Shown: positions 3,848-27,702 of the stretch, piece after piece
Numbering within the stretch: position 1 is the first letter of the stretch
Layout of the letters: each line of letters starts with the position of its first letter
Origin: a virus
Strand: one strand, 5' to 3'
DNA: 30,377 nucleotides
Virus record (IMG/VR): IMGVR_UViG_3300043395_002360
Location: 1 to 30,377 of that record
Made by a program: the position numbers and the translations under genes
Notes under the pieces: generated by a model
Told to the model about the DNA's origin: nothing
Seen by the model: only the letters and a program-made list of their open reading frames with translations
The model's database searches: none

Positions 3848-4084
3848 ATGGAAACACAAGCAACCACCGAGCAAATTGATGTAAATCAAGAGATCAACCA
3901 ATTACAAGGGTTAGTCAAGGCAACAAATAATAACTTGCCTGTTGCTCTTGCGATCTTCATCGCGTTACTCATCGTCAAGTTTAAGCAGTCTGAACGCAAA
4001 CAAATTGATTGTGAAAAGGTTACTACGGACTTAACAAAACGAATTGAAAAACTAGAAGAAAAGATTAAAGAACAAAATTACTAA
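3848..4084 (+). CDS. Small membrane-anchored coiled-coil protein, unknown function
   Basis: The 78-residue product has a polar N-terminus (1-27), one clear hydrophobic segment (about 30-47, LPVALAIFIALLIVKF) and a charged helical C-terminus (about 48-78) with heptad-like spacing. This topology is seen in small phage membrane proteins, including some holin-like ones, but no family motif is visible. It is the last plus-strand gene before the opposite-strand methyltransferase block, and its 3' end overlaps the methyltransferase 3' end by 20 bp tail-to-tail. The ribosome site is poor. A role in tail assembly or lysis would be guesswork. Confidence 0.6.
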   Translation: METQATTEQIDVNQEINQLQGLVKATNNNLPVALAIFIALLIVKFKQSERKQIDCEKVTTDLTKRIEKLEEKIKEQNY

Positions 4085-5294
4085 ACAATGTTCTAAATGC
4101 AATTTCAGCGGTCGCAGGTACTACACCATTGCCTAACATTGCTATCTCATCATTGACACTTGAAAAACTATAACACAATCTTTCATAGTCCAACCAATCG
4201 GAAGCCCCATTAGCATCTCCACCCATCTCGGATTGATCATATATTTGTTCTCTTTGGGGTTCTGATCGTTCAACTCCCTCAATTCCTTCATCGTTTTGTT
4301 GTTCGTATTGTGTAACTTGTTGAATGTTTCTTTGTGTACTTGCCACGTCAATTTCTGATCGCCCCTGTCCTCGCCCGTCTTGCGGGGTTTGATTGGGATG
4401 TTCATCGTTGTATCTCCAAAATCCGACTTTGTTGGCGTTATCCATGATAGTTCGGATGAGCGTTCTAGGTGGTTCGTATTCTCGTTGTTCTCGATCTCGT
4501 CCACTTGGGAGGGCAATAGATTCGGATTCGATTGTTGCAAGTTCTCCAATTCCCTTAGTAAATCTTTGTAATATGAAGGTTTCACCACCATCGGAAGATC
4601 GTTTCTCACAAGTCGAATTTTCTGATTTTCGATATACAATATTTGTTTTGTCTTGTCGTGTAGTGTGTTCCCCTTTACTACTGTTTTGAAAGTATTCGGA
4701 AAATCGCGCAAGTTCAGAATTTGTAATATCTTTTCTTTTTCCCAAGATGAACACACGTTGTCGTCTATGGGGTAGGCCTGTTTCTCGCGCCGTGAACAAT
4801 CCCCACTCAACTGAGTAACCAATTCTTTCCAACTCTCTACAGACATGGAGCAAAACAGGCGTCCCTTTTGGATCATCTCCCCAATCTGATCGGAGTGTAC
4901 TTGAGACGATTCCTCGTACATTTTCCAAGAAAACAAAGGCAGGTCTACATTTCTTAATTCCTTCTTTGATGAAGGGGAAGAGATGGCGGGGGTCTTCATC
5001 TCCAAGTCTAGATCCAGCATCGGAAAAAGGTTGACATGGGAATCCCCCACTGAGGAAATCCACTTTTCCAAGAAATTGCTCGAATGGGAAAGTTTTAAGG
5101 TTTGACCAAATAGGGCAGGGCGGCAAGATTCCGTTTTCCATTTTCGAAATAAGATTTTCGATTGCGTAAAGTTCGATTTCACAGTAAGCGACGGTTCGCA
5201 AGTTTGGCAAAATTCGGCTAAGTCCGAGATCAATACCTCCGTATCCTGTACATAAGGAGATATGATTAAATTTTTTGGTAGTATCCACATTCAT
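4065..5294 (-). CDS. DNA (cytosine-5-)-methyltransferase
   Basis: This 409-residue protein carries the ordered motifs of C5 cytosine methyltransferases: motif I (SLCTGYGGIDLGL, near 13-25), motif IV with the catalytic Cys in GGFPCQPFSDAG (C87), motif VI ENVRG (124-128), motif VIII HRRQRVF (176-182) and motif X GNGVVPATAEIAF (from 388). It transfers a methyl group from S-adenosylmethionine to cytosine, in phages usually to evade host restriction. The region between VIII and X (about 190-380), where target recognition should lie, is unusually polar and low in hydrophobic residues. The same DNA also encodes another long frame, which may explain that bias. Target sequence cannot be read from the protein. 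Likely co-transcribed with the gene at 5373-5708. Confidence 0.92.
   Translation of the reverse strand: MNVDTTKKFNHISLCTGYGGIDLGLSRILPNLRTVAYCEIELYAIENLISKMENGILPPCPIWSNLKTFPFEQFLGKVDFLSGGFPCQPFSDAGSRLGDEDPRHLFPFIKEGIKKCRPAFVFLENVRGIVSSTLRSDWGDDPKGTPVLLHVCRELERIGYSVEWGLFTARETGLPHRRQRVFILGKRKDITNSELARFSEYFQNSSKGEHTTRQDKTNIVYRKSENSTCEKRSSDGGETFILQRFTKGIGELATIESESIALPSGRDREQREYEPPRTLIRTIMDNANKVGFWRYNDEHPNQTPQDGRGQGRSEIDVASTQRNIQQVTQYEQQNDEGIEGVERSEPQREQIYDQSEMGGDANGASDWLDYERLCYSFSSVNDEIAMLGNGVVPATAEIAFRTLFSNFVL
4142..5290 (-). CDS. Overlapping frame inside methyltransferase gene; target-recognition-like protein candidate
   Basis: A second frame on the same strand, +1 to the methyltransferase, stays open for 382 codons from an ATG four bases after the methyltransferase ATG. 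Such length without stops is very unlikely by chance in AT-rich DNA. It reads GDSHVNLFP (82-90) across the DNA of the catalytic motif, ESWKELVTQLSGD (152-164), SSW (181-183), SWITPTKSD (281-289) and ends with NPRWVEMLMGLPIGWT (353-368). From memory, SSWPTP-like and NPRWVE-LMG-P-GWT motifs recur in many phage proteins labelled cytosine methyltransferase. It lacks the SAM-binding and PCQ motifs, so any role would be accessory. Whether it is translated separately, or by frameshift, is not shown by sequence. Confidence 0.6.
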   Translation of the reverse strand: MWILPKNLIISPYVQDTEVLISDLAEFCQTCEPSLTVKSNFTQSKILFRKWKTESCRPALFGQTLKLSHSSNFLEKWISSVGDSHVNLFPMLDLDLEMKTPAISSPSSKKELRNVDLPLFSWKMYEESSQVHSDQIGEMIQKGRLFCSMSVESWKELVTQLSGDCSRREKQAYPIDDNVCSSWEKEKILQILNLRDFPNTFKTVVKGNTLHDKTKQILYIENQKIRLVRNDLPMVVKPSYYKDLLRELENLQQSNPNLLPSQVDEIENNENTNHLERSSELSWITPTKSDFGDTTMNIPIKPRKTGEDRGDQKLTWQVHKETFNKLHNTNNKTMKELRELNDQNPKENKYMINPRWVEMLMGLPIGWTMKDCVIVFQVSMMR

Positions 5295-5372: not shown

Positions 5373-5708
5373 TTAGATATAAGAGATTTCTCTTTTAACT
5401 TGGTCAAGTGCTGATTCTAGCTTTGCTTTGTATTCATTGATCGCGCTTGTATATGCCCCAAGCAACCTATCAATCTTATGCTCTAAGTCCTCATAGGTGA
5501 CTACTTGCATACTTCCCATTTTAGTAAATTCGCTTGATTCGGTGGTTGAGAGGATATAAAGATATTCCGAGTTCATAGAACAATAAATAATGCGAATTTG
5601 TGTACAAGCATTCTTTTCTTTTACGACAAGTTCAAGTCTTTGACAGTCATATTCTACTAAGTAACCATTAGCTATTAGTAGATCGGTGCAAAATAATAAT
5701 GTCATCAT
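5373..5708 (-). CDS. Hypothetical protein of the methyltransferase block
   Basis: This 111-residue protein is not recognised. It begins with a hydrophobic stretch (MTLLFCTDLLIANGYLV), has a beta-like middle part with several Cys and Tyr, and ends in a charged amphipathic helix (about 75-111). It lies 78 bp upstream of the methyltransferase on the same strand and directly follows a consensus promoter, so it is the first gene of a two-gene minus-strand unit. The leader has an AAAGGA ribosome site at 5718-5723, nine bases before the ATG. Its position suggests a partner or passenger of the methyltransferase, but function is unknown. Confidence 0.65.
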   Translation of the reverse strand: MMTLLFCTDLLIANGYLVEYDCQRLELVVKEKNACTQIRIIYCSMNSEYLYILSTTESSEFTKMGSMQVVTYEDLEHKIDRLLGAYTSAINEYKAKLESALDQVKREISYI

Positions 5709-25725: not shown

Positions 25726-25744
25726 ATTTGTTGCCTATTTAATC

Positions 25745-25818
25745 TTTTAAAATTTATTGACAAAGCTAAAAACATTTCATAGAATAAAGCACCTTAACAA
25801 CACAAAGGATTTTAGCAA
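25745..25818 (+). promoter_or_regulatory. Sigma70 promoter and leader of the DNA polymerase gene (copy B)
   Basis: TTGACA (25757-25762), 17-bp spacer, TAGAAT (25780-25785), then a leader AAAGCACCTTAACAACAC with AAAGGA and GATTTTAGCAAATG. The block from AAAATTTATTGACAAAG through the start codon is nearly the same as the minus-strand copy at 5709-5777. Spacer bases differ while the -35 and the leader are conserved. Confidence 0.8.
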
Positions 25819-27702
25819 ATGAAATTTATCGCTATTGATACAGAAACCCACTTGATCGTGGATAACAATGTTCCCGCCCCCGTCTGCTTGACCGCCTTTA
25901 TACTTGATGAACAAGGCCAATCTGATTCATTTATCGCAAGATTTGATGAGAAACTTTACACTTGGTTAAAACAAGTATTCACAGACACAAACAAAACAAT
26001 CATCATGCACAATGCTTCATTTGATTTATCAGTGATTTGCGCCACATACCCAAGCCTATATTCTCCAGTGTTCAAAGCTCTCAAAGAGGGGCGCGTTCAT
26101 GATACCGGTATTATTGAGAAACTCCACAAAATCGCACATGGTGGCGAGGGTGTGGGCGTTATGGATGTCAATGGAACAAAGGTAGGAAAACTAAGCCTTG
26201 CGGGGCTTGTATACAAGTATTTCATGATTGATATTGCTTCATCCAAGCAGGCGGATTCTGTTCGTTATCAATATGATTCTTTTCGCAATCAATCGCTTGA
26301 TATTTGGTCACATGAAGCAAAGATTTACGCCATATATGATGCTATGTATACCATGTTAGTCTATCAAGTCCAAATGTCACAAATTCCCCAAGATGAGATT
26401 ATGGGACATGCTAAACAGACCGCCTATGATTTCGCTTTACGCTTGACGGGGTCGCATGGTGTTTGTGTTGACCCATCCAAAGTTTCATCTGTGAAAAAGA
26501 GCTTAGAGGATGCAATCAAAGAGCAAGAACAGCCATTACTTGATCTTGGTATTCTTAAGATGGAAAAGAACGAAATCAAAGAGAATAAAACACTGATCAA
26601 AGCACGAGTTCAACAAGCCTATGAATCTATGAAAAAAGAGATTAAGAAAACAGATACGGGCGGGATTAGTATGGATAAATCGGCGCTAGAAGAGAGCGAA
26701 GATCCTGATCTTTTATCTCTTTTAGAATATCGAGAAGTGACAAAATTACTAAGTACCTATATTGACTCGGTGGAAATGGTTAATCTGCCCCTTATGGATG
26801 GTAGATTACGATGTGATTATGAAGTACTTCAAGCAACAGGGCGCACCAGCTCAAAAGATCCCAACCTTCAAAATCTACCAAGACGCGAAGGCATTCGAGA
26901 TTGTTTTATTCCTAGCAAAGGGTTTGTATTTGTTGCTTGTGATTATGATGCAGCTGAACTAAGAACACTTGCGCAATGTCACTACTCAATAACAGGCAAT
27001 GAAAGCCCCCTTTTAAGTATGTATAAAAAGGATTCGGGGTTTGATCCTCATACTTGGTTTGCATGTAAAATGCTTGGGATTCCCTATGAAGAGGGTATGA
27101 CTAGGAAATCACAAGGTGATAAAGAAATTAAGAAACAAAGACAACGAGCAAAAGCCTGTAACTTTGGATTTCCGGGCGGTATGGGGGCAAGTTCATTTAT
27201 GGCATATGCAAAAGGTTACGGTGTTAATTTGACAAGGGATGAGGCACAAGAGTTAAAAAAACAATGGTTTGACGCTTGGCAGTTGTGGGATTGGTTAGAA
27301 CATGCACAACATGCACAAGAACAAGGATTTGTACTTATTCCCCAATCACAAAGAAAGAGGGGGCGTGTTTCCTTTACTCAAGCATGTAACACACCATTTC
27401 AAGGCTTGGCAAGTGATGGGGCAAAAGAGGCGCTTTTTCATGTTGCACTTGAGTGCTTTGCTGATCCCTCAAGTCCTTTGTATGACTCCCGCCCCGTTGT
27501 TTTTATCCACGATGAAATCATCATTGAATCACCAGAACACAAAGCACAAGAATCCGCCAAACGATTGCAAGAAGTCATGATTTCTTCAATGCAAACATTT
27601 TGCCCCGATACACCTATTGAGGCTTCGCCCACACTTATGCGCCTATGGTCAAAGAATGCAGAAAGTAAATTAGAGAATGGTACCTATACGATTTGGGGCT
27701 GA
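25819..27702 (+). CDS. Family A DNA polymerase with 3'-5' exonuclease domain
   Basis: The 627-residue protein has an exonuclease domain with D7 and E9 (IAIDTET), N65/D69 (MHNASFD) and Y170/D174 (YAIYD). The polymerase domain has motif A (DYDAAELR, from about 375), motif B (RQRAKACNFGFPGG, about 440-455) and motif C (HDE, 564-566). It lacks a 5' nuclease domain, as is usual for phage enzymes. The residue matching E. coli Pol I F762 is Phe, and the place of Y766 is Gly. A charged helical segment near 225-275 may be an insertion of the thumb. This is the replicative polymerase of the module. It ends flush against a minus-strand gene. Confidence 0.93.
   Translation: MKFIAIDTETHLIVDNNVPAPVCLTAFILDEQGQSDSFIARFDEKLYTWLKQVFTDTNKTIIMHNASFDLSVICATYPSLYSPVFKALKEGRVHDTGIIEKLHKIAHGGEGVGVMDVNGTKVGKLSLAGLVYKYFMIDIASSKQADSVRYQYDSFRNQSLDIWSHEAKIYAIYDAMYTMLVYQVQMSQIPQDEIMGHAKQTAYDFALRLTGSHGVCVDPSKVSSVKKSLEDAIKEQEQPLLDLGILKMEKNEIKENKTLIKARVQQAYESMKKEIKKTDTGGISMDKSALEESEDPDLLSLLEYREVTKLLSTYIDSVEMVNLPLMDGRLRCDYEVLQATGRTSSKDPNLQNLPRREGIRDCFIPSKGFVFVACDYDAAELRTLAQCHYSITGNESPLLSMYKKDSGFDPHTWFACKMLGIPYEEGMTRKSQGDKEIKKQRQRAKACNFGFPGGMGASSFMAYAKGYGVNLTRDEAQELKKQWFDAWQLWDWLEHAQHAQEQGFVLIPQSQRKRGRVSFTQACNTPFQGLASDGAKEALFHVALECFADPSSPLYDSRPVVFIHDEIIIESPEHKAQESAKRLQEVMISSMQTFCPDTPIEASPTLMRLWSKNAESKLENGTYTIWG

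Follow-up and report, generated by a model that had tools for sequence, protein, structure and literature searches.

A phage cytosine methyltransferase gene with two open frames and its probable organisation as a split enzyme

Two overlapping frames at the methyltransferase locus

The DNA analysed here, hereafter the window, is a stretch of 30,377 nucleotides from a virus (IMG/VR record IMGVR_UViG_3300043395_002360). On its minus strand, to which all feature coordinates of the gene refer, lies a C5-cytosine DNA methyltransferase gene with two open frames. Frame 0, termed alpha (4065..5294, 409 aa), encodes the large part of the enzyme. Alpha contains motif I (5223-5258), motif IV with PCQ (5028-5045), motif VI with ENV (4917-4925), motif VIII (4743-4778) and motif X with LGNGVVP (4116-4136), the set by which a C5-cytosine DNA methyltransferase is recognised. 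It matched Pfam PF00145 with E=1.8e-36, covering profile positions 1-199 of 324 only, and it also matched TIGR00675. The recognition region and motif IX that a monomeric C5 methyltransferase carries between motifs VIII and X are absent from this interval of alpha. The initial annotation had described the main frame as oddly polar between these two motifs, and this is borne out by composition: polar, charged and glycine residues make up 71% of the interval versus 52% of residues 1-188.

The +1 frame, termed beta (4142..5290, 382 aa), is predicted to encode the small-domain subunit. The two start codons are neighbours within ATGAATGTGG (5285..5294), with the alpha ATG at 5294-5292 and the beta ATG at 5290-5288, four bases downstream. 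The beta frame contains ESWKELVTQLSGD, SSW, SWITPTKSD and NPRWVEMLMGLPIGWT. The second frame had initially been annotated at 4142-5290 with 382 codons, a start four bases downstream of the main ATG and this list of motifs; the coordinates, length and offset are exact and every motif is present. An internal methionine of beta, Met149, lies in MSVESW (4829..4846) and is a possible alternative beta start; M149 and W154 are invariant in 58 beta sequences. As the sole start of beta, Met149 is disfavoured because the frame upstream of it is open and selected, which points to the outer start. A shorter second beta product starting at Met149 is possible.

Just upstream of the methyltransferase lies a 111-aa ORF (5373..5708, minus strand), which likely shares a transcription unit with it. 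A near-identical ORF is found upstream in L001, a contig of a syntenic phage, and L002, L003 and L005 have other ORFs in its place. Positions 1994-2079 of L001, just upstream of the small ORF, are 85% identical to window positions 25741-25822, the region just before a DNA polymerase-like gene. The two segments are possibly a shared promoter-like element.

Distribution of motifs and modules among relatives

Relatives of the locus were recovered by alignment-based searches of viral contigs and cellular genomes. A search of the second-frame protein on its own, as proposed in the initial annotation, was informative in part: beta gave no usable match to Pfam, NCBIfam or PDB sequences, and a viral contig search with the single beta sequence found no relatives, its patterns being too strict, but relatives were reached via the alignments. 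Matching loci were confirmed in two viral scans (260 and at least 450) and in cellular genomes (at least 437). The best 80 matches of each scan were read and then deduplicated to 146 viral and 73 cellular loci. The cellular loci belong to Alphaproteobacteria, Verrucomicrobia, Bacteroidetes, Firmicutes, other groups and an archaeal MAG. For one cellular locus the phylum was sampled evenly, and a beta profile matched 13 of the 299 genomes, centre genome included. Among the relatives were five IMG/VR contigs, in which alpha is 56-64% identical to that of the window (best segment), and phage C75C1, in which it is 48% identical; in these contigs and in C75C1 the second frame is open for 460-534 codons and carries the same motifs.

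Frame 0 carried motifs IV and X, and +1 a IX-like motif, in 120 of the 146 deduplicated viral loci and in 68 of the 73 cellular ones, tallies that describe this family rather than all C5 methyltransferases, since most of the relatives were found via beta or alpha similarity. At most of the off-pattern loci, no motif X or IV could be recognised within range, many of these loci lying at a contig end, or motif X also lay in +1. A shifted frame pattern was seen at one locus in each set. In contrast, the main frame of six ordinary C5 methyltransferases used as controls contained both motif IX and motif X, and their +1 frame held 10-27 stops.

At the place matching motif IX, which alpha lacks, the +1 frame of the window reads INPRWVEMLMGLPIGWT (4187..4237), conserved in 58 beta sequences. 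The +1-frame consensus in relatives is LNPxWVExLMGxPxGW. A profile of 211 beta motifs had as its best alignment motif IX of ordinary enzymes (LTxRxxARLQGFPDDW), a weak match in hhalign (P=0.016), and the identity of this motif is better backed by the rearranged relatives described below. The predicted target-recognition region of beta is a hypervariable segment (4248..4672) that contains SWITPTKSD (4421-4447). DNA flanking this segment aligns at 76-84% to the syntenic phages L001, L002 and L005, whereas the segment itself is unalignable to them except for one 125-nt stretch in L001, and it is the sole part of the gene neighbourhood that aligns poorly with the syntenic phages. From 0 to 7 copies of a WxTP module precede motif IX in each beta, and the closely related contigs L002 and L005 have their modules in different orders. 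Hypervariability and reordered WxTP modules are what diversifying exchange would be expected to produce in a target-recognition region. The initial annotation had placed a target-recognition-like part in the second frame; these findings support that placement and sharpen it, because beta also carries the motif IX that is absent from alpha.

Residues 180-270 of the window's beta form a helix-hairpin-helix stretch, with local pLDDT up to 75-89 in the helices. It replaces the usual first WxTP module, and similar sequence is found in near relatives.

In some relatives the same pieces are rearranged. Motifs IX and X both lie in the beta frame in L106, L135, L147 and L165 (Gordonia phage Upyo). In Mycobacterium phage Rita (L166), the catalytic motifs, LLPTP modules, IX and X are all in one frame. 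In the clade of L046 (3001-4160), L076, L145 and L151, stop codons close the alpha frame directly behind motif VIII, and an ORF of its own carries motif X together with a WPxRPxxxQYxWEEPRV segment; in L046, L145 and L151 this ORF has an ATG with AAGGAG or GGAGAAAA ahead of it. Beta is intact in all members of this clade while alpha is interrupted between motifs VIII and X. This speaks against frameshifting and shows that the interrupted alpha stretch is dispensable. This arrangement suggests that the clade may encode a three-piece methyltransferase.

Two further observations concern these rearrangements. Motif X also lies in the beta frame in L213, L217 and L227; in these, as in L106, L135, L147 and Upyo, the split is M.AquI-like yet overlapping. 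In Rita, a +1 open frame with LLPTP-like modules (L166, 1670-2128) overlaps the catalytic part and is perhaps a remnant of the beta frame.

The initial annotation had offered two outcomes, two proteins or a frameshift product joining the two parts; two proteins made from neighbouring starts are favoured, and the frameshift product is disfavoured. Programmed frameshifting would have to move ribosomes by +1 into beta once motif VIII is passed, and by -1 beyond motif IX to reach motif X, giving one monomer. Along the DNA the motifs indeed follow the order of a monomeric C5 methyltransferase, and Rita carries all of them in one frame. However, two opposite shifts would be required, and beta has a conserved ATG of its own and is open and selected from beside the alpha start, 150 codons ahead of any useful shift. 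Together with the separate motif X ORF of the L046 clade, which has an ATG and ribosome site in three members, this makes frameshifting very unlikely.

It is also conceivable that beta is made but acts independently, for instance as an inhibitor or anti-restriction factor, and not as a methyltransferase subunit. A Pfam search found no known relatives of the N-terminal half of beta. AlphaFold models of beta alone reached pLDDT 55 for the window's beta and 57 for that of a compact relative, and a Foldseek search with the predicted structure, of low pLDDT, found no match to an M.HhaI-type small domain or to any other fold. An N-terminal half with no known relative in that search and a beta that does not fold confidently by itself would fit an independent protein. 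Against this, motif IX is rightly placed before motif X and is absent from alpha, in rearranged relatives the C-terminus of beta is joined with motif X or with the complete enzyme, and M.EcoHK31I, considered below, provides a precedent for a split enzyme. An independent role of beta is accordingly very unlikely.

Openness of the beta frame and selection on both proteins

When the synonymous codons of alpha were shuffled among themselves, the 382-codon beta frame acquired a mean of 7.7 stops and was stop-free in 0 of 20,000 shuffles. Recoding alpha with codons from the other genes of the phage gave a mean of 12.8 beta-frame stops, with 0 of 5,000 sequences stop-free. Because the synonymous shuffles were never stop-free, the open beta frame is not due to chance. 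The same holds across relatives: in 71 non-redundant viral loci (22,993 codons), the beta frame contained 25 stops versus 437 expected from synonymous shuffles, and the third frame of the same loci contained 1375. Most of the 25 came from ATGAATG, whose TGA lies ahead of the beta ATG, and a clear stop within beta was found in L070 and L053 only. Stops scattered through the second frame of homologous loci, which the initial annotation had named as evidence that would speak against dual coding, were not what was observed.

The beta start is conserved as well. With start codons in relatives assigned by rule, the two starts overlapped as ATGTG (beta ATG, alpha GTG) in 38 of the 71 loci, and in another 20 the alpha start was followed by the beta ATG at a distance of 4-10 nt, the layout also seen in the window. 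A ribosome-site-like sequence was present upstream of the beta ATG in 48 of 65 cases, and the N-terminus of beta in relatives is MWILP or similar.

Selection was measured on 65 deduplicated pairs, with changes classed by their effect on each protein. Omega was calculated from isolated differences with a simple transition weighting and changed little for weights of 1.5-5. Where the catalytic half of alpha lies over the N-terminal half of beta, omega was 0.12 for alpha (95% 0.08-0.20) and 0.45 for beta (0.32-0.73), and over the recognition region and motif IX it was 0.27 for beta (95% 0.19-0.42) and 0.46 for alpha (0.32-0.67), values drawn from small numbers of doubly silent changes (32 and 37). 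Fourfold-degenerate sites of alpha differed at a frequency of 0.187 in the catalytic-half overlap and 0.109 in the recognition-half overlap, versus 0.321 in the non-overlapped tail. Judged by these substitution patterns, alpha and beta are both under purifying selection, with the emphasis reversed between the two halves, and the comparison of dN/dS in both frames that had been proposed as a check of the initial annotation comes out in its favour.

An untranslated second frame, arising as a by-product of alpha codon use and protein conservation, is extremely unlikely, for although the highly conserved catalytic half of alpha alone would keep some beta residues, synonymous shuffles never left the frame open, changes that are silent in alpha but alter the beta protein are under-represented, conservation over the recognition region is higher in beta than in alpha, and beta is intact where alpha is broken. 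The dual coding of the methyltransferase gene put forward in the initial annotation is upheld by the shuffles, the depletion of stops and the selection on both frames. On this evidence from the sequences, one stretch of viral DNA is almost certainly read in two frames to give two different proteins.

A probable split methyltransferase and its relation to known systems

We conclude that the locus very probably encodes a split C5-cytosine DNA methyltransferase, in which one DNA segment would be read in two frames and the products, alpha and beta, would assemble. This reading draws on the position of motif IX in +1 and motif X in frame 0 across the family, unlike in the ordinary controls, and on the depletion of beta stops, the selection on both frames, the conserved beta start and the natural rearrangements of the same pieces. 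Ribosomes would start at two adjacent start codons on one message. Alpha would supply the large catalytic part, with AdoMet-binding motif I, PCQ of motif IV, ENV of motif VI, and motifs VIII and X, and beta would supply the small-domain part, made up of a conserved N-terminal region, the WxTP target-recognition region and motif IX. The enzyme would be split at the domain boundary, and alpha and beta would come together as one cytosine-methylating enzyme whose target site is determined by beta. Its role would most plausibly be to protect phage DNA from host restriction, as suggested by general knowledge of phage methyltransferases.

A broader reading, towards which we lean with less assurance, is that these loci form a widespread two-subunit class. 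Its members would have about 250-530 dual-coded codons, overlapping AUG/GUG starts, an N-terminal half of beta that functions as a domain in its own right, for instance in docking to alpha, shuffled recognition modules and, in some lineages, three pieces.

It is rare for a long same-strand overlap to show selection on both of its proteins, and here one occurs in hundreds of phage and bacterial loci. This recurrence offers a natural series for studying two proteins evolving on one sequence. Several named records annotate one frame only, or call the pieces hypothetical protein or methyltransferase, and the target-recognition parts of many methyltransferases have therefore probably been missed. 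The split arrangement would explain why many phage cytosine methyltransferases seem to be without a recognition domain.

Two-polypeptide enzymes of this kind are known. M.EcoHK31I (YGGCCR), to which M.EaeI is akin, has a small polypeptide of ~176 aa; in work by Lee et al. in 1995, its coding sequence reportedly lay inside that of the large polypeptide, in a different frame. An overlap of this type between the small and the large part is found in the window and its relatives. In M.EcoHK31I, a natural two-polypeptide enzyme, motifs I-VIII and X are on the large polypeptide and motif IX is on the small one (PMC3404938). The window shares this distribution, with I-VIII and X in the large part and IX in the second polypeptide, a likeness judged on motif layout. 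The arrangement differs from M.EcoHK31I in that beta starts beside the alpha start and covers almost all of the gene; in the window and its nearest relatives it is 382-534 codons long. Our assignment places the recognition modules in beta, whereas the large subunit of EcoHK31I carries the predicted recognition domain (PMC3404938). M.AquI is also a natural two-polypeptide enzyme, split as I-VIII and IX-X, and resembles the window as a C5 methyltransferase in two polypeptides divided after motif VIII (PMC3404938). In contrast to M.AquI, whose small subunit holds IX and X, motif X of the window stays in alpha; the M.AquI-type union of IX and X in the second polypeptide is absent from the window and present in L106, L135 and L147.

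Among phage protein families, beta of phage C75C1 matches phrog_1008 (E=1.6e-12), which also includes motif X, and its alpha matches phrog_363 (E=9.9e-49). PHROG 1008 and PHROG 363 are filed as separate phage DNA methyltransferase families and are not marked as overlapping partners. The ShiLan-type mycobacteriophage methylases, which have an out-of-frame HNH insertion, resemble the present loci in being phage cytosine methylase genes with a second overlapping coding frame (PMC11855218). The second frame there is a mobile HNH endonuclease within an insertion, whereas here it would be part of the enzyme (PMC11855218). In the collection of papers searched, none described an overlapping split methyltransferase as a widespread phage gene type. 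Compared with the systems above, what looks new is the breadth of the arrangement, the near-full-length overlap, the touching starts, the shuffled recognition modules within the overlap and the clade with a separate motif X ORF.
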